Shown here piece by piece: positions 569-60,562 of a DNA stretch of 64,000 nt (positions are counted from its first letter, which is position 1; each line of letters opens with the position of its first letter). Source of the stretch: Magnetococcales bacterium (GTDB lineage Bacteria; Pseudomonadota; Magnetococcia; Magnetococcales; Magnetaquicoccaceae); contig JADGAZ010000001.1 of the NCBI GenBank assembly GCA_015231755.1, positions 124,001 through 188,000 of the forward strand, in the 5' to 3' direction. The position numbers were made by a program, and so were the translations under genes. The notes under the pieces were generated by a model. The model saw only the letters and a program-made list of their open reading frames with translations, made no database searches and had not been told where the DNA came from.

Positions 569-1407
569 GCGGCAGCAAGGAAAGAGTACCTTTTTTCGTG
601 GATGGGGCTTGGCTTCAGGCCCGTCTGGAAGGAGCGGGATTGCGGGTGGTGCAGGTGGGAGGGGAGCGGGATTATCCCCGTTTGCATGTGCCGGGTGCGG
701 TGCTGGTCTCTTATGCGGCGTTCACCACCCAGCGGGATGGCCTGCCGGGCATGCGGCCCGAGGATGAGGATCTGGCGCCTTTGTTGGGTCGGTTGGGGAT
801 TACGTTGGATACCCCGGTGGTGGTGTACGATCTGTCGGGGGGGACCGACGCGGCCCGGTTCGCCTGGACTCTGGCCACGTTGGGACATCGGGCCGGCTGT
901 GGGGTTTTGAATGGGGGCTTGTCGGTCTGGTATCACGAACAGCGTCCTCTTGAATCCCGTGTGCCGACGGTGACGCCGGTGGTGTGCGTGCCGGAGCCGG
1001 ATGAGTCGTGGCTGGCGGAGCGGGATGCGGTGCTGGCTTTGACCCAGGGACAAGGCGAGGCCCAACTGCTCGATACCCGTTCCCGCAACGAGTATGTGGG
1101 ATTGACCCTGCGCGCCCCCAGAGGACATCTCCCCGGCGCTTTGCATTGGGACTGGATGGATGCCCTGGTGGGACGCCAGGATCCCCGCTTGCAGTCGGTG
1201 GAGCGGTTGCGTGCCCAGTGTGGTGCCCTGGGATTGGAGGATCCGGGACGCGAGGTGATTCTGTATTGCGAAACCGCGCACCGTGCGGCCCATTCGTGGA
1301 TTTTGTTGCGTCATCTGGGCTGGGAGCGGGTTCGTCTGTACGACGGTTCCATGGCCGAATGGCGTTTGTGCGATCTGCCGGTAGTGGCCGGCGACACCCC
1401 CCGTTAA
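565..1407 (+). CDS. sseA: Two-domain thiosulfate/3-mercaptopyruvate sulfurtransferase (rhodanese)
   Basis: A 280-residue protein with two tandem rhodanese domains. The first carries VVVYDLSGGTDAAR with no active-site cysteine. The second has the catalytic loop YCETAHRAAH, whose cysteine would form the persulfide. This layout and length match the SseA/TST family, which moves sulfane sulfur from thiosulfate or 3-mercaptopyruvate to thiol acceptors such as cyanide. The ATG at 565 is preferred over an ATG at 541 because it follows a GGGGGA ribosome-binding site and overlaps the upstream stop. The loop sequence does not by itself decide between thiosulfate and mercaptopyruvate as donor, so the symbol is approximate. 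Confidence 0.85.
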   Translation: MSGSKERVPFFVDGAWLQARLEGAGLRVVQVGGERDYPRLHVPGAVLVSYAAFTTQRDGLPGMRPEDEDLAPLLGRLGITLDTPVVVYDLSGGTDAARFAWTLATLGHRAGCGVLNGGLSVWYHEQRPLESRVPTVTPVVCVPEPDESWLAERDAVLALTQGQGEAQLLDTRSRNEYVGLTLRAPRGHLPGALHWDWMDALVGRQDPRLQSVERLRAQCGALGLEDPGREVILYCETAHRAAHSWILLRHLGWERVRLYDGSMAEWRLCDLPVVAGDTPR

Positions 1408-1428
1408 GTCAAGGTTTTAGGATTGCCC

Positions 1429-2826
1429 ATGTTTGATTCTCTCTCCGACCGTCTCGAAGCGGTCTTCAAGAAGCTCAAGGGACAAGGCTCCCTGAACGAG
1501 AAAAACATCCGCGACGCCATGCGGGAGGTGCGCATGGCCCTGCTGGAGGCGGATGTCCATCTGGACGTGGTCAAGTCCTTCATCGCCCGGGTGCGGGAGA
1601 AGTCCCTGGGTCACGAGGTGATGGGTTCCTTGACGCCGGGTCAGCAGGTGATTCATCTGGTTCACAAGGAGTTGATCCAGGTGATGGGTGGGGTGAACGA
1701 GCGGTTGAATCTCGCCGCCCAACCTCCGGTGGTGGTGGTGATGGTGGGTCTGCAAGGATCCGGCAAGACCACCACCACGGCCAAGTTGGCCAAGCGTCTG
1801 CTGGAAAAGGATCGTCGCAAGCCTCTGCTGGCTTCGTTGGATGTCTATCGTCCCGCGGCCATGGATCAGCTCGCCACGGTGGGCGCGGCGGTGGGGGCCA
1901 AGGTGATGCCCACCCTGCCTAGCGAAAATCCCCGGGAGATCGCCAAACGGGCCTTGCAGACCGCCCGCACCGGTGGTTTCGATGTGCTGCTGCTCGACAC
2001 CGCCGGTCGTCTGCACATCGACGCGGAGTTGATGACCGAACTGGTGGATGTGGCCGAACTGGTCAAACCCACCGAGATCCTGCTGGTGGTGGACTCCATG
2101 ACCGGTCAGGACGCGGTGCATGTGGCCCGCAATTTTGACGAGAAACTCAATATCACCGGGGTTATCCTCACCAAGACCGATGGTGACGCCCGCGGGGGCG
2201 CGGCCCTGTCGATCCGTCACGTCACCGGCAAGCCCATCAAGTTTTTGGGTACCGGCGAAACCCTGGATGGATTGGAGCCGTTCCATCCGGACCGGGTGGC
2301 CTCCCGGATTCTGGGCATGGGGGATATTCTCTCCTTGGTGGAAAACGTCATGGAGAAGGTGGATCTCCAGGAGACCTCCAAGCTTCAAGAAAAGCTCATG
2401 ACCTCCGCCTTCACCCTGGAGGATTTCCTGGCCCAGATGCAGCAGATCAAGAAAATGGGACCGTTGGATGAGTTGATGGCCATGATTCCCGGAGTCAAGC
2501 AGGCCATGAAGGGCCGGGACATGAACGTGGACGAACGCCACTTGAAGCGGGTCGAGGCGATCATCCTCTCCATGACACCGGTGGAACGGCGCAAGCATCA
2601 ACTGCTCAACGCCTCCCGCAAAAAGCGTATCGCCATGGGTTCCGGAACCAGTGTGCAGGAGGTGAATCAACTGCTTAAACAGTTCATCCAGACCCAGACC
2701 ATGATGAAACGGTTCGGCAAGCTGGGTAACAAGGGATTCATGCGGGGCGGTTTCCCCGGACTGGGAGGCGGTGGATTTCCGGGCGCGGGTCTGTTCGGCG
2801 GCGGCAAACCCCCTGGTCTTTCCTGA
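1429..2826 (+). CDS. ffh: Signal recognition particle GTPase Ffh (SRP54)
   Basis: A 465-residue full-length Ffh. The N-terminal helical bundle is followed by the G domain, with the P-loop GLQGSGKTTTT near residues 107-117, DVYRPAAMDQL, DTAGRLHID and TKTDGDARGG, and then by the methionine-rich M domain. The C-terminus ends in a Gly/Pro/Phe-rich tail (GGFPGLGGGGFPGAGLF). Ffh binds 4.5S RNA and signal sequences of nascent membrane proteins and delivers ribosomes to FtsY at the inner membrane. An in-frame TTG at 1423 is rejected in favour of the ATG at 1429, because MFDSLSDRL is the usual family N-terminus. It follows the rhodanese gene after 21 bases. Confidence 0.97.
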   Translation: MFDSLSDRLEAVFKKLKGQGSLNEKNIRDAMREVRMALLEADVHLDVVKSFIARVREKSLGHEVMGSLTPGQQVIHLVHKELIQVMGGVNERLNLAAQPPVVVVMVGLQGSGKTTTTAKLAKRLLEKDRRKPLLASLDVYRPAAMDQLATVGAAVGAKVMPTLPSENPREIAKRALQTARTGGFDVLLLDTAGRLHIDAELMTELVDVAELVKPTEILLVVDSMTGQDAVHVARNFDEKLNITGVILTKTDGDARGGAALSIRHVTGKPIKFLGTGETLDGLEPFHPDRVASRILGMGDILSLVENVMEKVDLQETSKLQEKLMTSAFTLEDFLAQMQQIKKMGPLDELMAMIPGVKQAMKGRDMNVDERHLKRVEAIILSMTPVERRKHQLLNASRKKRIAMGSGTSVQEVNQLLKQFIQTQTMMKRFGKLGNKGFMRGGFPGLGGGGFPGAGLFGGGKPPGLS

Positions 2827-2879
2827 GTTTGTATTCATCAACATGATGGAATCGTTAGTTCAAAATATCTTAATAAGGA

Positions 2880-2908
2880 TTGACTTATAGAGTTGATGAT
2901 GTTACAAT
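2880..2908 (+). promoter_or_regulatory. Sigma-70-type promoter for the antiporter gene
   Basis: TTGACT at 2880-2885 and TACAAT at 2903-2908 are separated by exactly 17 bases, one mismatch each from consensus. They lie in an AT-rich 124-base gap between ffh and the antiporter gene. The predicted transcript would have a leader of about 35 bases and an AAGGA site at 2936-2940. This is one of the clearest promoters in the window. Confidence 0.7.
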
Positions 2909-2950
2909 TTGTGATCTTCAACCAATCAGCTTCATAAGGATCGCTCAGCA

Positions 2951-4309
2951 ATGAAACGATATCTGTTGATCTTGTTTGCTGTTCTTTTGCTTCCCTTGAA
3001 TGCCTGGGCCGGATCCGGCGTTGCCCCTGAGGGGCCGACAGTGTTTGGCATTCCGGTGGATTTCGTCCTGTTCGCCCTGGTTTTGGTGGGTGTGGCCCTG
3101 TTTCACAACAACACCCTCCAGGTGGCGCTGACGGGTGTGACCACCATCATTGTCTACAAACTGATCTTCACCGGCTTCAAGCATGGTACGGGTCTGACCG
3201 GTCTGGCCCTCCATTTCCAGCACGAGTGGGTGATTCTGGCCAACCTGCTGTGTCTGCTCATGGGATTCGCGTTGCTTTCCAACCATTTCGAGCACAGCAA
3301 AGTGCCGGATCTTCTGCCCAAGTTTCTGCCCAGTGGCTGGATGGGTGGTTTTGTGCTGCTGTTTTTGATCGGGGTGCTTTCCAGTTTTCTGGACAACATT
3401 GCCGCCGCCTTGATCGGTGGCAGCATTGCCAACGTGGTGTTCCGGGGCAAGGTGCATGTGGGGTATTTGGCCTCCATCGTCGCCGCCTCCAATGCCGGGG
3501 GATCCGGGAGCGTGGTCGGTGACACCACCACCACCATGATGTGGATCGCGGGGATTCAGCCTTCGGCCGTGTTGCACGCCTATGCGGCGGCGGTGGTGGC
3601 CTTGGTGCTGAGCGGCATTCCGGCGGCCATGCAACAACACAAATATTCCCCGATCAATGCCAATCCCCCGGAAGGCATCAAGATCGATGGCGCCCGTGTG
3701 GCCATCGTGGCCTTCATTCTGGTCATGGCGATTACCGTCAACATCATCATCAACGTGAAATACAACGAAGTCTCCGATACCTTCCCCTTCATCGGGGTGG
3801 CGGTCTGGGTGGCGTTGCTGCTGTCGGCACCGGTACGCAAACCCGATTGGGGCTTGATGCCGGAAACCTTCAAGGGGAGCATTTTCCTGCTGTCGCTGGT
3901 GGTGTGCGCCTCGCTGATGCCGGTGGAAAAATTGCCCCTGGCCTCCTGGCAGACCGCCTTCGGATTGGGATTCGTCTCCGCCGTCTTCGACAATATCCCC
4001 TTGACCGCTTTGGCCATCAAGCAGGGGGGGTATGACTGGGGCGTGCTGGCCTATTCCGTCGGATTCGGTGGCTCCATGATCTGGTTTGGCTCCTCGGCGG
4101 GCGTGGCCATCTCCAACAACTTCCCCGAGGCCAAATCCGTGGGCAACTGGTTGCGTCACGGCTGGCATGTGACTGTGGCCTATATCATCGGTTTCTTCGT
4201 GATGCTTTCTTTGGTGGGTTGGCACCCGACGGTGGATCGTTATCACGCCGACGGCGCCTCCGCCCCTGCCAGTCATGCTTCTGTCGCTCCTGCCAAAACG
4301 ACTCACTGA
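2951..4309 (+). CDS. nhaD: NhaD-type Na+/H+ antiporter (ArsB/NhaD ion transporter family)
   Basis: A 452-residue polytopic inner-membrane protein with an N-terminal cleavable-looking segment (LLILFAVLLLPLNAWA) and about ten further hydrophobic segments. Two similar motifs lie in the two halves: SSFLDNIAAALIGGSIA (about residues 142-158) and VFDNIPLTALAIKQGG (about 345-360). They match the paired DN-containing re-entrant loops of the ion transporter superfamily. NhaD proteins exchange cytoplasmic Na+ or Li+ for protons and help in salt and alkali tolerance. The magnetosome protein MamN belongs to the same superfamily, but no other magnetosome gene is nearby. The gene has its own promoter and a possible terminator after it. 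Confidence 0.8.
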   Translation: MKRYLLILFAVLLLPLNAWAGSGVAPEGPTVFGIPVDFVLFALVLVGVALFHNNTLQVALTGVTTIIVYKLIFTGFKHGTGLTGLALHFQHEWVILANLLCLLMGFALLSNHFEHSKVPDLLPKFLPSGWMGGFVLLFLIGVLSSFLDNIAAALIGGSIANVVFRGKVHVGYLASIVAASNAGGSGSVVGDTTTTMMWIAGIQPSAVLHAYAAAVVALVLSGIPAAMQQHKYSPINANPPEGIKIDGARVAIVAFILVMAITVNIIINVKYNEVSDTFPFIGVAVWVALLLSAPVRKPDWGLMPETFKGSIFLLSLVVCASLMPVEKLPLASWQTAFGLGFVSAVFDNIPLTALAIKQGGYDWGVLAYSVGFGGSMIWFGSSAGVAISNNFPEAKSVGNWLRHGWHVTVAYIIGFFVMLSLVGWHPTVDRYHADGASAPASHASVAPAKTTH

Positions 4310-50957: not shown

Positions 50958-51633
50958 GTCGTGTTGACATTGGATCCATGTCCTGTCTCCCAGGAGGTGA
51001 TGCTATCAGCCTTTTGATAAAATTTAAATCATTTGGTATGCTGTTGCCATTGAACCTGACAGGAGGGAGAGATGGCGCTGGGCAGATGGGTGGGAAATAG
51101 AAGGAGAGAAACGGTTTTATCAACGGACTGTTAGGGTTGGTTTCCATCCATCCTACCAGAAACGTCAGATTAAGCCTTGCCTATTACAGATCCTGGGGGA
51201 CAAGCTCAAATTGGACATCCTGGCTACTCATTTCAATGAAGGCAGCCAAACTGGTGTTCGGCATCCTGGATTTTCGATTCTACGCCCTGGCGGATGGTGT
51301 CTGGGAAGTCTGTGCCCGATATCCAAAGCGTGGACCGATCTCGGCAGCGTCAGAGAGCAGCAAGATGGCCTTCGATTTTGGGTGAAAATTTTTGGGGAAA
51401 GTCCTGAATTTAAGCTCTTGACTTCTTTGCCCTAAAGGTGCTAATATCGTGCTGTTCCTGGTGGATTTTTGGGCTTTTTCTGAGGGAAGCGTATCTGGAG
51501 TGATTCTGGTACGCTTCCCTCAGAAAAAGCTTGATGTTGGCAGAACCGGATCAGATAATTTTTTTTACCATTTTTACCGGAAGATCTTATGTTATTAGTT
51601 TGTTGTGAACAAACATGAAGAAAAGGATTGAAG
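50958..51633. other. Left boundary of the glycan island, with a decayed reading frame
   Basis: From about 51,027 to 51,434 one + frame is open and protein-like (e.g. KRFYQRTVRVGFHPSYQ, LDILATHFNEGSQTGVRHPGFS) but has no start codon or ribosome-binding site before 51211. I do not recognise the family. It may be the end of a truncated gene. A perfect inverted repeat follows at 51473-51530. GC content falls from this point on. Confidence 0.4.
51473..51530. terminator. Perfect 21 bp inverted repeat, bidirectional terminator
   Basis: The arms 51473-51493 and 51510-51530 are exact reverse complements, with a 16-base loop. The outer part of the stem is GCTTTTTC on the left arm and GAAAAAGC on the right. 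The T and A runs inside the stem fit a bidirectional intrinsic terminator insulating the glycan genes. A mobile-element end is the alternative. Confidence 0.6.
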
Positions 51634-52896
51634 ATGGCGGATCTAAGTGTAGAGTTGTTGCAAATGTTGCAGGGAGAGTTCGACGCCCGGCGCCGTACGG
51701 AGGCCGCAAATCGCCCGGAGGGTTGGATCAGCGTAGGTTGGCCTGCCTATGACATTGGTGAGGTGAAAGCTGGTTTACAATGTCTGCTTGATTTGCGCTT
51801 GACCCAGGGCTATCATACCAAAACATTTGAAAAGAGTTATGCTAGCCACCTGGGAATGCATACATCTGTGGCGCTCAATTCGGGATCATCGGCCAATTTT
51901 TTGGCGCTAGCCAGTCTATTAGAAAGCGGAGAGGTTAAATCTGGAGACGAAGTCATTTGTCCTGCAGCCACTTTCGCCACTGTCTCTTCGCCGATCTACC
52001 AGCTCGGGTTGGTGCCCGTTTATGTTGATTGTGACACACGGACTTGGTGCATAGATCCGAACGAGGCGGAATCGGCAATCGGTGCGCGTACCCGAGTTGT
52101 GATGCCGGTGCATAACCTTGGGTTTCCGGCTGATATGCCGGCATTATCCAGCTTGTGCAAACATCGGGGTATGGTCTTGCTGGAAGATTGCTGTGAGGCT
52201 CATGGAAGCCAGTCTCAAGGGCGCAATGTCGGCACATATGGTCAGTTGAGCACCTTGAGCTTCCATGTAGCCCATAACATTACTACCGGAGAAGGGGGCA
52301 TGGTCTTCGCCGAAAGCGAAGAGCGGGCCGTGGTACTACGCTCCCTGCGGGAATTTGGTCGTTGGATGGGATCTGGGGATCGCTACCTCAGCGTGGGAAA
52401 CTTGGTAGATTATGACGTGCGCTATCTTTTCACTCGACTTGGCTTCAACATGCGAATGACCGATATCACGGCGGCCATCGGTTTGGTTCAACTTGGAAAA
52501 CTTGATGCCTTAAACGAAGTACGTCGTGCGAATGCAGCTCAACTGGATGCCATTCTGTCTCCCTTTGCCCAGTGGGTCTATCCTTGGCAGCCATTGCCTG
52601 GGGATCTGTGCGGATACTATGGCTATCCTATTATGGTCCAGAAAGATGCTCCGTTTAGTCGGCGTTCTCTCTGCGAATTTCTGGAGAAGCACAACATTGA
52701 GACCCGTCCCATGATGGGGGGGTGCTTGCCTGATCAACCCGGGTACGTCGGACTCCACCATCGCATCCATGGAGATCTACCTGTATCTAAGTTAATTCGG
52801 GACCATTGTTTCTTTATTGGATGCCACCCTTCTGTCGGGATGCAAGGGTTGAATCACATTGCTGAAATCTTCTCGGCGTTCATGAGGAACTTCTGA
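51634..52896 (+). CDS. DegT/RfbH-like PLP enzyme with His replacing the PLP lysine (probable sugar 3-dehydratase)
   Basis: A 420-residue fold-type I enzyme of the DegT/DnrJ/EryC1/StrS superfamily. PLP contacts are kept: LNSGSSANFLAL near residues 81-92 and Asp185 in LLEDCCEAHGS. In the internal-aldimine motif, where aminotransferases have S-F-x-x-T-K-N, this protein has SFHVAHNITTGEGG, with His214 in place of Lys. The same change defines the 3-dehydratases RfbH/E1 and ColD, which use PMP to remove the sugar 3-hydroxyl. The Cys cluster that binds the [2Fe-2S] centre of RfbH is absent from the matching region (REFGRWMGSGDRYLSVGNLV). A role in deoxysugar synthesis for surface glycan is inferred. 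The start is the ATG at 51634 after AAGGA. Confidence 0.82.
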   Translation: MADLSVELLQMLQGEFDARRRTEAANRPEGWISVGWPAYDIGEVKAGLQCLLDLRLTQGYHTKTFEKSYASHLGMHTSVALNSGSSANFLALASLLESGEVKSGDEVICPAATFATVSSPIYQLGLVPVYVDCDTRTWCIDPNEAESAIGARTRVVMPVHNLGFPADMPALSSLCKHRGMVLLEDCCEAHGSQSQGRNVGTYGQLSTLSFHVAHNITTGEGGMVFAESEERAVVLRSLREFGRWMGSGDRYLSVGNLVDYDVRYLFTRLGFNMRMTDITAAIGLVQLGKLDALNEVRRANAAQLDAILSPFAQWVYPWQPLPGDLCGYYGYPIMVQKDAPFSRRSLCEFLEKHNIETRPMMGGCLPDQPGYVGLHHRIHGDLPVSKLIRDHCFFIGCHPSVGMQGLNHIAEIFSAFMRNF

Positions 52897-53241
52897 TCCT
52901 TGCTTTTTACCCGGTTTGGCATCGCCATAGTACGAATAATAATGAATTTCAGATCACTAACTGAATGCTGGTGATCTGAAATTCGGGGGACCGACCGTCG
53001 GTTGAATCGAGAGACGAATGCCATCATTTTCCCGCCAATGCCACAGAGCAATGGCTCTTTCCCTCTGTAAGCAGTCTACTTTTTGTGCCTGTTCGCAGTA
53101 GGCTTGACCTCTGCCGATGGTGAGAGCAGTTGCCGTCTTCAAGTGATCAGCATCCCAGAATTCGCTTTGAGCGGCTTACAAGAACAAACACCTCGGCTTT
53201 GATGGGAATGTTTCAATTCATTTTACTTAGGACTCTAAACA
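52897..53241. other. Intergenic region with a perfect hairpin and possible relic
   Basis: A perfect 14 bp inverted repeat lies at 52944-52984. The minus strand between 52,985 and 53,170 is open and protein-like (GRGQAYCEQAQKVDCLQRERAIALWHW) but has no recognised family, and the hairpin cuts into it. It may be a fragment of an inserted element. Confidence 0.4.
52944..52984 (+). terminator. Perfect hairpin after the dehydratase gene
   Basis: GAATTTCAGATCAC (52944-52957) and GTGATCTGAAATTC (52971-52984) pair perfectly across a 13-base loop. No T-tract follows, so termination is uncertain; it may stabilise the 3' end. Confidence 0.4.
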
Positions 53242-54564
53242 ATGTATGACACGATCGCCGTGATGGGAATGGGATATGTCGGGATGACGTTAGCAGTAAT
53301 TCTGGCAGAGATCGGTTACAATGTCTATGGTATTGAGATCAATTCATCGGTTGTAACGCAACTTCGTCAGGGGAATCCCCATTTCTTTGAAGAAAATCTG
53401 GATGTTCGGTTGCGGCATCAGTTGGCCAGAAAGACGTTGCATATTGAATCGGGCGTCCCGGATATTCCCATAGATATCTTTGTGATCTCCGTCGGTACGC
53501 CATTGTTGCCCGGACAACATATCCCTAACTTAGACCACATCCAAGAAGTGGTAAAGGATGTGGGCAAACACTTGAAGAAGGGTGCCATGGTGTTAATACG
53601 TTCCACGGTTCCCATGGGACTCAGCCGCAACATTGTGTTACCTTTGTTGGAGCGGATATCTGGTCTGAAAGGGGGGGAGGATTTCTATTTAGCCTTCACC
53701 CCGGAACGGACCATCGAAGGCAAGGCGTTGACCGAGTTGCGCAATAACCCCCAGGTAGTGGGGGGACTGACTACCGGCTGTACCGAAAAGGCCGCCATTT
53801 TCTTCCAGCGTATGACACCGGCAGTGATCCATCTCTCATCCCTTGAAGCGGCAGAGATGTGTAAGTTGATCGATAATACCTATCGGGATGTACGTTTTGC
53901 GTATGCAAACGAAATGGCACAGGCGGCAGAGGCACTTGGTCTGGATATCCATGAAATAATCTGGGCGGCCAATATCCATTATCCGCGCAATAGCATTCCG
54001 GTACCTTCACCAGGGGTAGGCGGGGCGTGTCTATCTAAAGACCCCTACATCTTGATGGATACGACCAGCCGTCATGGATATCCTCTGCAATTGATTGCCA
54101 AGGCTCGGGAGATTAACGAAGGCTATCCCGGTTTGATCGTCAGGCGGATACAAACCGAGATGGTACGGTTGGGAAGCGATCTAAACCATGCCAAGGTGCT
54201 GGTGATAGGTTTCGCCTTCAAGGGAGATCCGGAGACGGCGGACCTGCGGGACTCTACCACCCTATGGTTGCTGCGGGAGTTGAAGGCCTATGCACCGCAA
54301 TGTCGAATCCAGGGATACGATGCGGTAGTGATGGATTCTGAAATATCTGCTTTGGGTGTGGAGCCAGTAGCCCTTCCGCAGGGCTTTGACGGGGTGAATG
54401 TGGTAATTATTGCAAACAATCATCCGTCTTATCGCAAGTGGGATCTGCTGGACATGGCAGAACGCCTAGCACGTCCAGCTTTGGTGTATGATGGATGGCG
54501 CATACTGGACAGGGATAGCGTGATGACGTTAGATGGTGTGGGCTACATGGGAGTAGGAATATGA
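53242..54564 (+). CDS. UDP-glucose/GDP-mannose dehydrogenase family (UDP-sugar 6-dehydrogenase)
   Basis: A 440-residue NAD-dependent four-electron dehydrogenase that oxidises C6 of a nucleotide sugar to a uronate. It has the N-terminal Rossmann motif MGMGYVGMTLAVILAEIG, STVPMGLSRN, FTPERTIEGKAL, the catalytic Cys263 in GVGGACLSKDP, and the C-terminal GFAFKGDPETADLRDSTT. The TPERTIEG and FKGDPETADLRDS segments are most like the WecC/WbpA branch, which acts on UDP-HexNAc, rather than UDP-glucose dehydrogenase. The next SDR gene overlaps by four bases. Confidence 0.88.
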   Translation: MYDTIAVMGMGYVGMTLAVILAEIGYNVYGIEINSSVVTQLRQGNPHFFEENLDVRLRHQLARKTLHIESGVPDIPIDIFVISVGTPLLPGQHIPNLDHIQEVVKDVGKHLKKGAMVLIRSTVPMGLSRNIVLPLLERISGLKGGEDFYLAFTPERTIEGKALTELRNNPQVVGGLTTGCTEKAAIFFQRMTPAVIHLSSLEAAEMCKLIDNTYRDVRFAYANEMAQAAEALGLDIHEIIWAANIHYPRNSIPVPSPGVGGACLSKDPYILMDTTSRHGYPLQLIAKAREINEGYPGLIVRRIQTEMVRLGSDLNHAKVLVIGFAFKGDPETADLRDSTTLWLLRELKAYAPQCRIQGYDAVVMDSEISALGVEPVALPQGFDGVNVVIIANNHPSYRKWDLLDMAERLARPALVYDGWRILDRDSVMTLDGVGYMGVGI

Positions 54565-56268: not shown

Positions 56269-57248
56269 CGGGTTCTCTGGCTATGCAGAGGGTTCTTCTT
56301 ACTGGAGCCACCGGTTTCGTGGGACAGGCTATAGCGCGTGCCCTAGTGCGGGAAGGATGTCGAGTCATGGCTCTGGTGCGTAACCCGCAAGCGGCAAAGA
56401 TCCTTCTGCCCGACGACGTGGCGTTTTTCTCCTGCAACCTAGAGGACCGAGGGACCGTTGTTGAACTATTTCCTTTGGCGGATATCTGTATACATTTGGC
56501 CAGTGTCAAGTTTAACTATAAAGTTCATACCGAACAGGCGCTGATGGTAGCGGAACGAAACTTGGAAATCCATCGCAATCTAATCGAGGGATGTCGAGCG
56601 CGTGGCATCCCGAAGGTAATGTTCTTGAGCAGCGTGGTGGTTTACGAGGATTTGGCGCACCATCTTTTGACCGAGCGATCTCCTGTGCGCTTTGTGGATA
56701 CCCCCGACGGCTACGCATGGTCTAAACTGGTCATGGAAGGTTTGTTCCGGTTTTTAACACGTGAGACCGGCATACAAAGCATTTGTGTCCGGGCAGACAA
56801 TACCTACGGACCGGGTGACAGCTATGCCGTGCAGGGTATGCAGGTCATTCCATCCATAGTGCGTAAGGCGCATCAGGACAATCCTCTGATAATCTGGGGA
56901 TCAGGGATGCAGAAGAGGACTTTTCTATATGTGAATGATCTGGTACGTGGATTGTTGGCGTTGTTGGGCATGGAGCGGAATATTCCGGAGGTGATCAACC
57001 TTTCGTCTTCCCAGGTAGTTACTTTAATGAATGTCGCCCAGGAGGTGGTGCGTCAGACGGGTCGTGAAGTGGAAGTCGTGGTAGATACCGATCAGCCGGA
57101 AGGCAACGCTTGGCGCTGCATGGATAACAGCCTTTTCCTGAAAACTGTAGGCCGGGATTTTTTGTTTACTCCGTTGCAGGAGGGACTGAATGCTACAATT
57201 AGAGATTTTCGTACTCGATTTACAGAGCATGATGGACTCCAGATTTAA
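56265..57248 (+). CDS. NAD-dependent sugar epimerase/dehydratase (extended SDR), second copy
   Basis: A 327-residue extended SDR with NAD motif LTGATGFVGQAIARAL, SSVVVY, catalytic Tyr150/Lys154 (GYAWSKLVMEG), and the C-terminal RTFLYVNDLVRGL. It is distantly related to the SDR at 54561. The start may be the ATG at 56265 (overlapping the leader) or MQRVLLTG at 56283. The reaction cannot be named from motifs; it probably completes a deoxy- or amino-sugar for the surface glycan. Confidence 0.82.
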   Translation: MTGSLAMQRVLLTGATGFVGQAIARALVREGCRVMALVRNPQAAKILLPDDVAFFSCNLEDRGTVVELFPLADICIHLASVKFNYKVHTEQALMVAERNLEIHRNLIEGCRARGIPKVMFLSSVVVYEDLAHHLLTERSPVRFVDTPDGYAWSKLVMEGLFRFLTRETGIQSICVRADNTYGPGDSYAVQGMQVIPSIVRKAHQDNPLIIWGSGMQKRTFLYVNDLVRGLLALLGMERNIPEVINLSSSQVVTLMNVAQEVVRQTGREVEVVVDTDQPEGNAWRCMDNSLFLKTVGRDFLFTPLQEGLNATIRDFRTRFTEHDGLQI

Positions 57249-57663: not shown

Positions 57664-58592
57664 TCAGTTGTCCATACTTTTGAGGCTTTTCAGTCTTTTG
57701 GCGTGGTTATAGGCCATAAGGAAGGCGTTTAAATGCTCTGTGAGTTGGGCGTGTGAGGCATAGTGATACCTCCTTGACCGTGGTCTCCTTGAGTGTTCTA
57801 TTCATTCGTTCAACCTGACCGTTGGTCCAAGGATGGTTAGGTTTTGTCAGGAGATGCTCAATACCTGGGCTTGACATGTTCGGTCAAAAGGGTGCTCCCG
57901 TAGGTGGGTGGTTGCTCCGGTTCGGTTTCTGGGCAGTTCCGTGAACTGGATGCCGTTGTCGGTAAGCACCGTATGGATCTGATAAGGGACGACCTCGATC
58001 AATGTCCCGAGGAATGAAGCCGCTGTCTTGCGATTGGCGTTTTCGTGGAGTTCGGCATAGGCGAACTTGCTGGTTCGGTCAATAGCCACGTAGAGATACA
58101 GTTTGCCCTCCTCGGTGCGACTTCATCGATATCAACATGAAAATAGCCTATAGGGTAGGATTTGAATGTCTTTTTTGAATTTTTATCGCCCTTGATTTTC
58201 GGAAGACGGCTGATACCATGGCATTGGAAACAACGGTGCAGTAAAGATCGAGTCAGTACCGGGATCATGGCCTGTAAGGCGTAAAGACAATCATCTAGAG
58301 GAAGCACGTGTGCCTGCGGAATGCAACGATTATCGCTTCCTGTTCGGCTGTCAGTATGGTTGATCGCCGCTCTTTCGGCCCCATGGGCATATCGTGAATA
58401 AAATCACGCTTGCGCCATTTCATGACCGTCTTGTGGTTGAGATCGTACTGTTCAGCAAGCTCCTGGATCGTAGCTTGCGATCGTTGTATTGCAGTTCGGA
58501 TGGCGTACGTGGTCTTTGGCGCTGCCGTGCAGTATCATTGCAGTTCGGATGGCGTACGTGGTCTTGGCGCTGCCGTGCAGTATCTGGCTCAT
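57664..58592 (-). pseudogene. IS481-family transposase, frameshifted
   Basis: On the minus strand the pieces of an IS481 transposase appear in order but in different frames: MSQILHGSAK at 58592 with an intact AGGAGG site, LPLDDCLYALQAMIPVLTRSLLHRC, SYPIGYFHVDIDEV, AIDRTSKFAYAELHENANRKTAASFL, VLTDNGIQFTELP, HLLTKPNHPWTNGQVERMN and NAFLMAYNHAKRLKSL. At least four frame changes are needed, one of them caused by a 48-49 bp tandem duplication near the start. The DDE core is therefore interrupted and the element is dead. Confidence 0.85.
58488..58584. repeat. Tandem duplication of 48-49 bp inside the IS481 relic
   Basis: Copy one (58488-58536, 49 bp) and copy two (58537-58584, 48 bp) start with ATTGCAGTTCGG and end with GTGCAGTATC. 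They differ only by one T in a short T run. The duplication doubles the HGSAK...VRHPNC coding segment and shifts the frame. Confidence 0.85.
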
Positions 58593-58734
58593 AAATCCTC
58601 CTGTGATGGAATGTCAGTATACCATCCATCACACGTTGGGACCAGACACCGATCTGATTCGGACTGTCATGGCTCAAGCCGCCAACCGGGCGGGGATCAT
58701 GCCCATCAGGATCAGCTTCAAGGGGGCGATGCAA

Positions 58735-58959
58735 CAAATGGACGCTTTTGCGCACCGGGTCGCCATCGGCGATCAACAAGCCCGTCTTGTGGACGAACTG
58801 TTGCGCGCCATTGCGTACTATCGAATCGGCATCGACCTGGACGTGTAACCTTGAGCCGTAAAACGCCGGCCAAAGGCTTATCGACGCCTCAGCCAACCAA
58901 GGGCAGAGGCTAGATTATTCCTGGAGAAATATGAGGTTGCGGCTAACTAAGCGCCATTG
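58735..58959 (+). mobile_element. IS4-type transposase relic, left inverted copy
   Basis: From about 58,656 the + strand encodes DLIRTVMAQAANRAG, then QQMDAFAHRVAIGDQQARLVDELLRAIAYYRIG and, in another frame, an SRKTPAKGLSTPQP tail. This is the C-terminal end of an IS4-like transposase. From 58,735 to 58,959 it matches the right copy in reverse orientation, ending in GGCTAACTAAGCGCCATTG. Frameshifts inactivate it. Confidence 0.7.
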
Positions 58960-59019
58960 CCCTATGGTCTTTGTGTATGGGTTTAATCAACAATCAGATC
59001 GGTTAAACAAAGCATCAAA

Positions 59020-60048
59020 ATGAAAAACATCCTTATTGATCCGTCTTATCCGGTTTTTAATAATAATAAATTGTTTGATCTTCAGGATCCAATTTTGAAC
59101 CATGATAATCATTTGTTGCAGTTACATGTTCTAAAGGAAAAATTAACGCGTCAAAATATCTCGATCAATACGGCTGATCTGTGGCAGGAAAGCTCCAAGA
59201 CTTCTGGTATTCTGTATCGCTATATTTCTCTTGGAATGATGGAAAATATTAAGAGATTTGAAAAGCAGGAATCAATAGTGCTGGATTCATTTGTGATCAT
59301 GGAACCACCCATTGTGGCACCCGCTCTGTATGACGCCTTGCCACTGTTGACAGATAAATTCAAATATGTTTATATGCACAATGTAGAAGGCAACGGTTAC
59401 TCCCTGTCTGGTGTTGATCGGAAAAAACTTCGCAGGTTTTATTGGCCGATTCCCTACAACACGGTGCTGGATGCTGTCTGGAGTCATGAAAATCGTGAGC
59501 ATCGTATTGTTGTTATCAACGGCAATCATCGACCCAGATTACGATTCCAGGAACTTTACAGTCTGCGTATTCAGGCGATGTGTGCGTTGGCTGAATTGCA
59601 GGCTGTAGATCTGTATGGCAGAGGATGGGAACGCTGGTGGTCGCGCGAGTCCATGTGGTTACCGTATTGGATGCATCGAAAAAAGCTGATGACGATTTAC
59701 AAAGGGTCTTGTGTGTCAAAATTCGATATATTAAAAAAGTATCATTTTTGTTTATGTTTTGAAAATATGGCTATGACTGGTTACATTACTGAGAAAATAT
59801 TCGATTGCCTGTATGCGGGAACGGTTCCATTATATCTTGGGGCGCATGATATTGAAAAATATATTCCGTCAGAGGTGTTTATTGATTGCAGACAATATGA
59901 AACTTGGCAAGATATGTGGAGAGATTTAAGAACAATATCTCTACAGAAAATCAGACAAATCAAAAAGGCAGGAAGAGATTTCTTGCATTCGGACATGTCA
60001 AAACCTTTTTATCGCTCCATGGAAAACATTATCTTTGCCAGGGAATAG
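59020..60048 (+). CDS. Glycosyltransferase family 10 (fucosyltransferase-like)
   Basis: A 342-residue protein without signal peptide. The C-terminal half has the GT10 donor motif FCLCFENMAMTGYITEKIFDCLYAGTVPLYLG followed by YIPSEVFIDC, as in bacterial alpha-1,3/1,4-fucosyltransferases that use GDP-fucose. The N-terminal half (acceptor side) is not conserved. It is the most AT-rich gene of the window, has little ribosome-binding site, and lies between inverted IS4-type relics, so it was probably acquired. The sugar and acceptor are not known; decoration of LPS or capsule is inferred. Confidence 0.8.
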   Translation: MKNILIDPSYPVFNNNKLFDLQDPILNHDNHLLQLHVLKEKLTRQNISINTADLWQESSKTSGILYRYISLGMMENIKRFEKQESIVLDSFVIMEPPIVAPALYDALPLLTDKFKYVYMHNVEGNGYSLSGVDRKKLRRFYWPIPYNTVLDAVWSHENREHRIVVINGNHRPRLRFQELYSLRIQAMCALAELQAVDLYGRGWERWWSRESMWLPYWMHRKKLMTIYKGSCVSKFDILKKYHFCLCFENMAMTGYITEKIFDCLYAGTVPLYLGAHDIEKYIPSEVFIDCRQYETWQDMWRDLRTISLQKIRQIKKAGRDFLHSDMSKPFYRSMENIIFARE

Positions 60049-60057
60049 GCCATGATC

Positions 60058-60287
60058 CAATGGCGCTTAGTTAGCCGCAACCTCATATTTCCTCAGGGAT
60101 AATCTAGCCTCTGTCCTTGGTTGGCTGAGGCGTCGATAAGCCTTTGGTTGGCGTTTCACGACTCGAGGTTCCGCACGTCCATGTCGATTGCCGATTCGAT
60201 GGTACGCAATGGTGCGCAATAGTTCGTCCACAAGATGGGCTTGTTGATCGCCGATGGCGACCCGGTGCGCAAAGGCGTCCATTTGTT
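60058..60287 (-). mobile_element. IS4-type transposase relic, right inverted copy
   Basis: On the minus strand it reads MDAFAHRVAIGDQQAHLVDELLRTIAYHRIG, then RVVKRQPKAYRRLSQPRTEARLSLRKYEVAAN and a stop. This C-terminal part is in one frame, unlike the left copy. The element end CAATGGCGCTTAGTTAGCC begins at 60058, nine bases after the GT10 gene. Sequence similarity to the left copy stops near 60,290, where another relic is joined. Confidence 0.75.
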
Positions 60288-60562
60288 TCTTTCCCTCCCA
60301 GAAAACCCACCGGCCCGATTTTGGCTCTTTTCAACTGGCCTTTGGGCGTTGGATTTCGCTGGATAGTAAGGCCAATTACAGCGCCGGGTTCAATCTGGGG
60401 CTTTTGATGCGGCATCTGCCGGGGTATGGCACACCGAAGGAGCGGGCGAGTGCTCGTTACCTTTTTGTCCTCCTGCTGACCGATGGAGATGTGCTGCTTT
60501 TGGGTGTCGGTCTGGCTGTCTGCGGTGAAATCTCTGCTCGTGATTTTCCTTTCCGAAACTGA
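60288..60562 (+). pseudogene. Transposase relic, possibly IS1182/DDE type, C-terminal fragment
   Basis: The + strand encodes SLDSKANYSAGFNLGLLMRHLPGYGTPKERAS, then a hydrophobic tail. The FNLGLLMR-x5-GTP pattern is found near the C-terminus of IS1182-like DDE transposases. No upstream domain is present. Confidence 0.4.

Follow-up and report, generated by a model that had tools for sequence, protein, structure and literature searches.

A separate clade of histidine-type, iron-sulfur-free sugar 3-dehydratase-like enzymes beside uronate-decarboxylase-type genes, with a candidate role in 3-deoxypentose synthesis

According to the passages of PMC8987622 that deal with sugar 3-dehydratases, E1, ColD and SpnQ form a Schiff base between pyridoxamine 5'-phosphate (PMP) and a 4-keto sugar, a His residue accepts the C4' proton and the C3 hydroxyl is lost; ColD goes on to hydrolyse its product and regains PMP from glutamate, whereas E1 and SpnQ use electrons delivered via a [2Fe-2S] cluster. 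The same passages name His in place of the pyridoxal 5'-phosphate (PLP) lysine as the main difference between active 3-dehydratases and aminotransferases, and give 4-keto-6-deoxy or 4-keto-2,6-dideoxy hexoses as the substrates of the three well-characterised 3-dehydratases. Here we describe a DegT-family gene, referred to as the query, in a stretch of 64,000 nucleotides from a Magnetococcales bacterium (assembly GCA_015231755.1, contig JADGAZ010000001.1, positions 124,001 to 188,000), referred to as the window. Its His residue, the absent iron-sulfur (Fe-S) ligands, its clade, its neighbours and the decarboxylase signature of one neighbour were computed directly; the query belongs to a separate clade, widespread but rare, of His-type 3-dehydratase-like enzymes without Fe-S, whose genes mostly stand near a nucleotide-sugar 6-dehydrogenase and a short-chain dehydrogenase/reductase (SDR) of the uronate decarboxylase type. 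We slightly favour the reading that the query is a PMP-dependent, ColD-like C3-dehydratase whose substrate would be a nucleoside diphosphate (NDP)-4-keto-pentose.

ColD (GDP-4-keto-6-deoxy-D-mannose 3-dehydratase; 2GMS, 3B8X) shares with the query the PF01041 fold, His for Lys and the absence of the ligand set, and by this analogy glutamate-recycled PMP chemistry would be expected in the query. On the other hand, the two are 27–28% identical and fall into different clades, their motifs differ (AHNITTGEGG/REFGR in the query, SHHIATMEGG/RAHGW in ColD), and the partner on the ColD side is a GDP-mannose 4,6-dehydratase (GMD) rather than the dehydrogenase and decarboxylase-type SDR of most query-clade loci. 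E1/RfbH/AscC (CDP-4-keto-6-deoxyglucose 3-dehydrase; 3BCX) is the closest structure by both sequence and fold, has the same His, and its C193 matches Cys187 of the query; unlike E1/RfbH, the query is without three of the four Fe-S ligands, has no RfbG neighbour and scores below the RfbH cut-off. SpnQ, as described in the above passages of PMC8987622, also has His for Lys and deoxygenates a 4-keto sugar at C3, but carries a four-Cys Fe-S motif. The PDB entry 9WVY ('putative NDP-4-keto-6-deoxyglucose-3-dehydratase'), for which no paper was found in the open-licence literature, shares the His, the EDCC motif and the Cys-free ligand segment; it is 33% identical to the query, and its long branch joins the Fe-S clade in the quick tree described below (Shimodaira-Hasegawa-like approximate likelihood ratio test, SH-aLRT, 92). 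A likeness also exists at the level of pathways: in those of CalS9 and ArnA-ArnB, as outlined in parts of PMC10338323, a uronate decarboxylase frees a 4-keto-pentose on which a PLP enzyme then acts, and CalS8 is a close (second-best) PDB match of the window dehydrogenase. In those pathways, however, the PLP enzyme transaminates (ArnB has Lys), whereas the query is of the His type.

Active site and clade of the query protein

The open reading frame (ORF) begins with ATG at 51634 and its stop codon ends at 52896, in agreement with the preliminary description of this DNA; an alternative TTG start is possible two codons upstream. The PF01041 profile matched the protein with 289 bits (E 7.4e-86, gathering score 19.8), placing it in this superfamily, and the NCBIfam RfbH model NF011936 gave 322.2 bits, under its 423-bit cut-off. 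By sequence, the nearest solved structures were E1 dehydrase (220 bits), then 9WVY and ColD. The AlphaFold2 model (predicted local distance difference test score, pLDDT, 94.3) matched E1 first (Z 55.5), with ColD and GDP-perosamine synthase at about 51, a ranking of modelled folds that has no power to discriminate chemistry.

His214 of the query aligned with E1 His220 and ColD His188, both of which numbers match named mutants (E1 numbering was taken from chain positions of the PDB sequence matches), so that its earlier assignment to the position of the PLP lysine was borne out. The Fe-S ligands of E1 are C193, C251, C253 and C261. The counterpart in the query of the E1 stretch bearing C251, C253 and C261 is the segment GRWMGSGDRYLSVGNL, which contains no Cys, and the first ligand position is kept (Cys187, within EDCC). 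The preliminary statement that the protein is without the Fe-S cysteines of RfbH thus holds for three of the four and fails for Cys187.

Relatives were collected by a scan with the window protein (best 80 of 96 genome loci and 79 viral-contig loci, numbered with L below). Before the trees, L001 (the window itself), L007, L008, L075 and L080 were left out as partial or duplicate; L118, whose ORFs are the same as those of L113, was dropped, and 9WVY was kept out of the careful tree and the column comparison for its long branch. In the careful tree of 66 sequences (65 of 114 rows plus L248), the query clade forms one group of 30 (support 100/99; 100% of 200 bootstrap trees), beside 9 Fe-S rows with E1 (100/100), 15 ColD-side rows with ColD (100/99), 5 Omnitrophota-type rows (100/100) and 7 rows with the catalytic Lys (97/83). 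A quick tree of all 114 rows agrees with these groups (query clade SH-aLRT 98). The query did not fall inside an aminotransferase clade, nor was Lys found in its close relatives. The view that it could be ColD-like or a new branch working without an Fe-S reductase stands, at the sequence level, in that it has its own clade, separate from that of ColD, and three of four ligands are absent.

Three memberships were rejected: that of the Fe-S RfbH group (separate clade, three of four ligands absent, score below the NF011936 cut-off), that of the ColD clade (query and ColD-side clades separate, each at 100/99) and that of the Lys aminotransferases (His for Lys, separate clade).

Active-site columns were compared over 113 rows (30 query-clade, 17 Fe-S, 33 ColD-side, 21 Omnitrophota-type and 12 Lys). 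The residue at E1 position 220 is His throughout the first four groups (30/30, 17/17, 33/33 and 21/21) and Lys in 12/12 Lys rows. All four ligand cysteines are present in 17/17 Fe-S rows, whereas Cys at E1 251, 253 or 261 occurs in 0/30 query-clade members, 5/30 of which have some other Cys within the segment and 0/30 three. Retention of Cys187 says little, because most relatives without the ligand set retain it too (31/33 ColD-side and 21/21 Omnitrophota-type rows). At the position following 220, Asn is found in 29/30 query-clade and 10/12 Lys rows; the Fe-S and ColD-side rows all have His there. The octapeptide EDCCEAHG served as a search pattern and its conservation is therefore biased by the search; neither His214 nor the ligand segment was part of the patterns used to find relatives, and since the combination of His and missing Cys is consistent in 30/30, it is not a matter of chance.

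All 30 members, the viral ones included, retain both the PLP Asp (D185) and His214. Absence of the catalytic Lys would fit an inactive aminotransferase homologue, the other option raised in the preliminary description; however, His for Lys is typical of active 3-dehydratases in the account of PMC8987622, D185 and His214 persist over very wide taxa, the model is well folded and the partner genes recur in bacteria, archaea and viral contigs, so that we regard this option as very improbable. A ColD-like route is expected because His214 is present and the Fe-S ligand set absent, and we consider such chemistry likely.

The members of the query clade come from bacteria, archaea (L024, L026) and viral contigs. 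The best genome matches, at up to 50% identity, are from SAR86, a Bdellovibrionales metagenome-assembled genome (MAG), alphaproteobacterial single cells, many Patescibacteria, Prochlorococcus, Chloroflexota, Omnitrophota, Nitrospira, a Methanocellales MAG and a Pacearchaeota MAG; the best viral-contig matches are 41–44% identical. In 60 genomes from the host's genus, family, order and phylum, ranking by E-value gave best matches of only 36–39% identity; two partial matches, each about 250 residues long, stood at 42% and were left unclassed. The query gene was therefore most likely acquired from outside. At E 1e-82, a sample of 398 genomes of the same phylum returned only the query itself, plus a 39% match with ColD-side motifs (EDCCEALG, SHHITTLEGG), and 379 genomes from the phylum of genome G062 returned G062 itself alone; the clade is patchy, because both searches returned almost only known members. 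Among the phage and plasmid matches listed (30 of 86 and 20 of 958), there was no obvious query-clade member, the best identities being 31.5% and 36.6%.

Two observations concern other His-type genes. The Omnitrophota-type rows (part of L051–L073, and L077, L078 and L084) form a further clade without the Fe-S ligand set, with AAHxICSGEG/RSHGRR and similar motifs. This clade occurs in Omnitrophota, Verrucomicrobiota and archaea, and 10/21 of its loci have a GDP-fucose synthase-like gene within 5 kb. The host genome itself also encodes an RfbH protein with the complete set of four Fe-S cysteines, paired with a CDP-glucose 4,6-dehydratase (G000:C18:72126-77506), and a ColD-like gene stands a few kb from this pair.

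Partner genes and their distribution

Neighbouring ORFs were clustered around 24 loci, window included. A nucleotide-sugar dehydrogenase recurred near query-clade genes, full-length in 11 loci (the window among them) and short in 5, and so did an extended SDR, SDR1; in the window the two genes overlap by four bases. The window dehydrogenase matches TIGR03026 with 351 bits, and its best PDB match, 4r16, is annotated as a UDP-N-acetylmannosaminuronic acid (UDP-ManNAcA) dehydrogenase. The Cys, Lys and Asn that we take to be its catalytic residues are retained in 14 aligned rows (five full-length, nine short). The short forms, of about 255–280 residues and without the C-terminal domain (L013 886-1677, L110 6190-7032, L112 9273-10076 and others), retain the presumed catalytic residues.

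The best distinct PDB proteins for SDR1, all three with decarboxylase titles, are human UXS1, a UDP-glucuronate decarboxylase (UDP-xylose synthase, UXS; 139 bits), 8vr2 (116) and 8shh (97), the latter two titled as an oxidoreductase/decarboxylase of Psychrobacter, for which no paper was found in the open-licence literature, and as the EvdS6 decarboxylase. Elsewhere in the host genome its best match is the host's canonical UXS (33% identity), which is itself 59% identical to human UXS1. For the AlphaFold2 model of SDR1 (pLDDT 89.7), human UXS chains fill the first three Foldseek places, and VIA-align also ranks human UXS first (Z 39.8, root-mean-square deviation 1.8, 307 aligned), with epimerases next at 38.7.

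A table in PMC12820599 of active-site residues of UXS, ArnA and UAXS lists Glu120, Arg144, Asn176 and Arg277 of human UXS1 beside the catalytic Tyr147 and Lys151; in Mth373, assigned there as a UDP-xylose synthase, Lys replaces Arg277. The residue R277 corresponds to ArnA R619, and an Arg equal to the latter marked CalS9, AviE2 and EvdS6 as decarboxylases in the relevant part of PMC10338323. SDR1 of the window has E124, R155, Y158, K162, N187 and R288 at the positions of UXS1 E120, R144, Y147, K151, N176 and R277. With some SDR rows assigned to their groups by similarity, this full six-residue signature was found in 18/18 SDR1 and 6/6 UXS/ArnA rows and in 0/33 other SDRs (4,6-dehydratase-type, 0/10; epimerase-type or other, 0/7; second SDRs, 0/16). 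R277 alone gave 18/18 and 6/6 against 0/10, 0/7 and 2/16, respectively.

Loci were then scored with hidden Markov models (HMMs) for the dehydrogenase and SDR1 together with a check of the full signature. The partner HMMs were built from query-clade loci and favour them; neither the signature check nor the best-hit test relies solely on HMM scores. The dehydrogenase and a full-signature SDR occur in the same locus in 20/30 query-clade cases (singly, 22/30 and 21/30) against 3/75 controls, namely ColD-side, 3/31, Omnitrophota-type, 0/21, Fe-S, 0/16 (a narrow control, all from the host's own order) and Lys, 0/7; the count omits the neighbourhoods of the host's own L003–L006 and those around ArnB and WecE of E. 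coli. Locus lengths differ between the sets (about 3 to 20 kb), so that an absence on a short contig counts for little. SDR1 was the best reference match within 5 kb in 19/29 query-clade loci and in 5/67 others, three of these five matches being weak, under 100 bits (Fisher p 7.7e-9, only indicative because the loci are related and not independent); L020 and L235, in which no DegT ORF passed the filter, were excluded from the best-match count, leaving 29 query-clade and 15 Fe-S loci. Distances between DegT proteins and SDR1 are correlated over 18 pairs (Mantel r 0.65, shared descent left in). When the wider genomes were included, four more members (L014, L021, L027, L030) had a full-signature SDR1 elsewhere, and the local SDR1 of L013 proved complete beyond the locus edge, giving 26/30 members in locus or genome.

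The other His-type clades stand beside other makers of 4-keto sugars. RfbG (CDP-glucose 4,6-dehydratase) was the best reference match within 5 kb in 11/15 Fe-S loci, and a GMD-type gene in 15/31 ColD-side loci. The latter count agrees with an explanation in which the query would be a ColD-type 3-dehydratase for an ordinary GDP- or CDP-4-keto-6-deoxyhexose, the substrate suggested in the preliminary description, and the dehydrogenase and SDR1 would synthesise another component sugar of the same polysaccharide. Such an explanation also draws on the GMD-like genes within 5 kb of two query-clade genes (L019, L026), on the fucosyltransferase families GT10 (window) and GT11 (L013; same cluster in L014 and L016), which fit a GDP-6-deoxyhexose, and on the occurrence of the dehydrogenase-SDR1 pair without a query-type enzyme. 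However, neither GMD nor RfbG was a best match within 5 kb in 27/29 query-clade loci (and the query gene has no GMD best match within that distance), the dehydrogenase, SDR1 and DegT genes keep company in bacteria, in archaea (L024, L026) and in viral contigs alike, and in the 30-kb record of L110 the sole PF01370 match is SDR1. Most neighbourhoods point to a uronate-decarboxylase-type SDR instead, and we regard an ordinary hexose substrate as rather unlikely.

Three ColD-side relatives, L031 (Natronorubrum), L040 (Nitrososphaera) and L076 (SAR116), have a dehydrogenase and a full-signature SDR in the locus, a combination that may have arisen there a second time.

Proposed pathway and its weighing

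From this genome context, a pentose substrate seems to us to have a little better than an even chance. All reactions, the nucleotide, the stereochemistry and the C4-reduction step of the pathway that follows are what we infer. The dehydrogenase would oxidise an NDP-hexose, in the simplest case UDP-glucose, yielding the uronic acid, and SDR1 would oxidise C4 and decarboxylate it to a free NDP-4-keto-pentose, as ArnA, CalS9 and AtmS9 do. The PMP-loaded query enzyme would then form a Schiff base at C4, with His214 taking the PMP C4' proton and the C3 hydroxyl leaving; hydrolysis of the enamine would give a 3-deoxy-4-keto sugar and ammonia, and glutamate would turn PLP back into PMP, so that no Fe-S reductase would be needed. 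Reduction at C4 by the second SDR (SDR2), or by SDR1 in its NADH form where there is no second SDR, would yield an NDP-3-deoxypentose for a glycosyltransferase. That such a pathway is common to marine and groundwater bacteria, archaea and phages, with SDR1-NADH perhaps reducing the product in three-gene viral versions, is a tentative extension to which we give somewhat less than even credence.

Several observations weigh against this proposal. As regards SDR1, the catalytic role of the signature Arg was not demonstrated by the mutagenesis of EvdS6 as reported in part of PMC10338323; the SDR1 rows were picked by eye, partly via SEVY/RxSY, which cover E120 and R144 (not N176 or R277); in the SDR tree they form a clade of their own (99/98), without a firm position relative to UXS; they depart from UXS at A79N (17/18) and Y84F (18/18); and the fold lead of UXS over epimerases is about 1 Z. 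As regards the loci, 345 bases separate the query gene from the dehydrogenase gene in the window, the Fe-S control is narrow as mentioned above, and both the fucosyltransferase families and the presence of SDR1 together with a GMD-like gene in L026 fit a hexose. A full-signature SDR1 was absent from the genome or record searched in 4/30 members: L010 has no SDR1 match at E 1e-30 within its MAG; L019 has a canonical UXS elsewhere and its GMD within 5 kb is 54% identical; L028 has two genomic SDR matches with incomplete signatures, one of them short of a single residue of the six; and the 38-kb record of L115 has six SDRs, none with the full signature. A UDP-N-acetylglucosamine (UDP-GlcNAc) 2-epimerase gene is present in L028, with a 44%-identical relative in L115. 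Finally, no second SDR was found in L110 by PF01370 over its 30-kb record, and the dehydrogenase-SDR1 pair also occurs in viral contigs without a query-type enzyme. L028, which also has a short dehydrogenase, and L115 form a sub-branch of the query clade, perhaps with another substrate.

The 2-epimerase genes, the UDP-ManNAcA annotation of the best dehydrogenase match and the rank of the Psychrobacter protein 8vr2 as second-best for SDR1 would be in line with a 2-acetamido-4-keto substrate, that is, a uronate or pentose derived from UDP-GlcNAc instead of a plain pentose. On the other hand, SDR1 is nearest to UXS1 by sequence and by fold, and no 2-epimerase gene was found among the window neighbours scanned by profile; we consider an acetamido substrate improbable.

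If the plain 4-keto-pentose is the substrate, the link of this clade to uronate decarboxylases would carry 3-dehydratase chemistry over to pentoses, the predicted glycan building block would be a 3-deoxypentose, and a decarboxylase reusing its NADH on the deoxygenated product would make the cycle redox-neutral. A neighbour rule, matching each His-type clade to the kind of 4-keto-sugar maker beside it, would also aid in annotating entries named 'DegT/DnrJ/EryC1/StrS aminotransferase'. Within open-licence PMC literature, no paper was found for 3-deoxypentose and related names, or for a 3-dehydrase together with a 4-keto-pentose, which is weak evidence of novelty because of that restriction.

Viral contigs and other features of the window

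The locus L110 is phage DNA, with portal and major head genes, and carries back to back a glycosyltransferase, a short dehydrogenase, SDR1 and the query-clade enzyme. A reverse scan of viral contigs with SDR1 gave, among the matches listed, 11 SDR1-type loci (NF or QF plus full signature), one of which (L246, on the same contig as L114) has a full query-clade DegT protein; the known carriers L110–L113 were not among these matches. In another of the 11, L248, the pair is accompanied by a Lys enzyme that resembles ArnB (32%, QTVKIITCGDGG). Because a Lys-type enzyme in one case, a His-type enzyme in others or none in several is found beside it, the dehydrogenase-SDR1 pair is a module with an exchangeable DegT-family enzyme, and on sequence grounds we read L248 as a natural swap between two enzyme types using a 4-keto sugar. 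This swap fits the role proposed for SDR1, because both enzyme types need a 4-keto sugar, the product of decarboxylases of the ArnA and CalS9 kind.

The company of the pair in L248 would also agree with transamination of the 4-keto-pentose to a 4-amino-pentose by the query itself despite the missing Lys, or with formation of both products, as SpnQ without its reductase has aminotransferase activity in the account of PMC8987622. According to the same account, however, ColD and E1 are without transferase activity under similar conditions, and the His-type clades are separate from the Lys rows, with His in 30/30 query-clade members; transamination by the query is thus doubtful in our view, with a low probability.

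In L248 the ArnB-like Lys aminotransferase, the short dehydrogenase and SDR1 are consecutive (1359-4179), possibly a viral 4-amino-pentose cassette. Short DegT-like ORFs of about 200 residues also occur with SDR1 (L247 6620-7210, L248 5318-5917, L249 11365-12036, L250 12180-12794, L257 4126-4734), in some loci as the sole DegT-like gene, that of L249 matching PF01041 with 62 bits.

Table 1. Positions of the query gene, its active-site features and neighbouring genes in the window
Feature	Position	Strand	Basis
DegT-family (PF01041) PMP-dependent sugar 3-dehydratase-like protein, 420 aa	51634..52896	+	profile, alignment, PDB sequence matches, AlphaFold2
Cys187 codon, aligned with E1 Fe-S ligand C193	52192..52194	+	alignment
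His214 codon, replaces PLP lysine	52273..52275	+	aligned with E1 His220
Segment GRWMGSGDRYLSVGNL, counterpart of the E1/RfbH stretch with the other three cluster cysteines; Cys-free	52357..52404	+	alignment
Nucleotide-sugar (UDP-glucose/GDP-mannose type) 6-dehydrogenase, 440 aa	53242..54564	+	PF03721/PF00984/PF03720
SDR1, UDP-glucuronate-decarboxylase-type extended SDR, 328 aa	54561..55547	+	UXS1 match, six-residue signature, fold
SDR2, second extended SDR, possible 4-keto reductase (putative function)	56283..57248	+	PF01370
Glycosyltransferase family 10 gene, possible user of the sugar (link uncertain)	59020..60048	+	PF00852

For SDR2, the best PDB matches were GDP-L-fucose synthases, and the decarboxylase signature is absent. 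Around the query gene, a scan of 51300-53400 for promoters and terminators gave nothing informative. Within 58717-60303, two nested inverted repeats (124 nt, 89%; 115 nt, 90%) flank the GT10 gene, an arrangement reminiscent of a cargo gene enclosed by opposing fragments of mobile elements. A direct repeat of 29 nt is present at 58488 and 58537 of the window.

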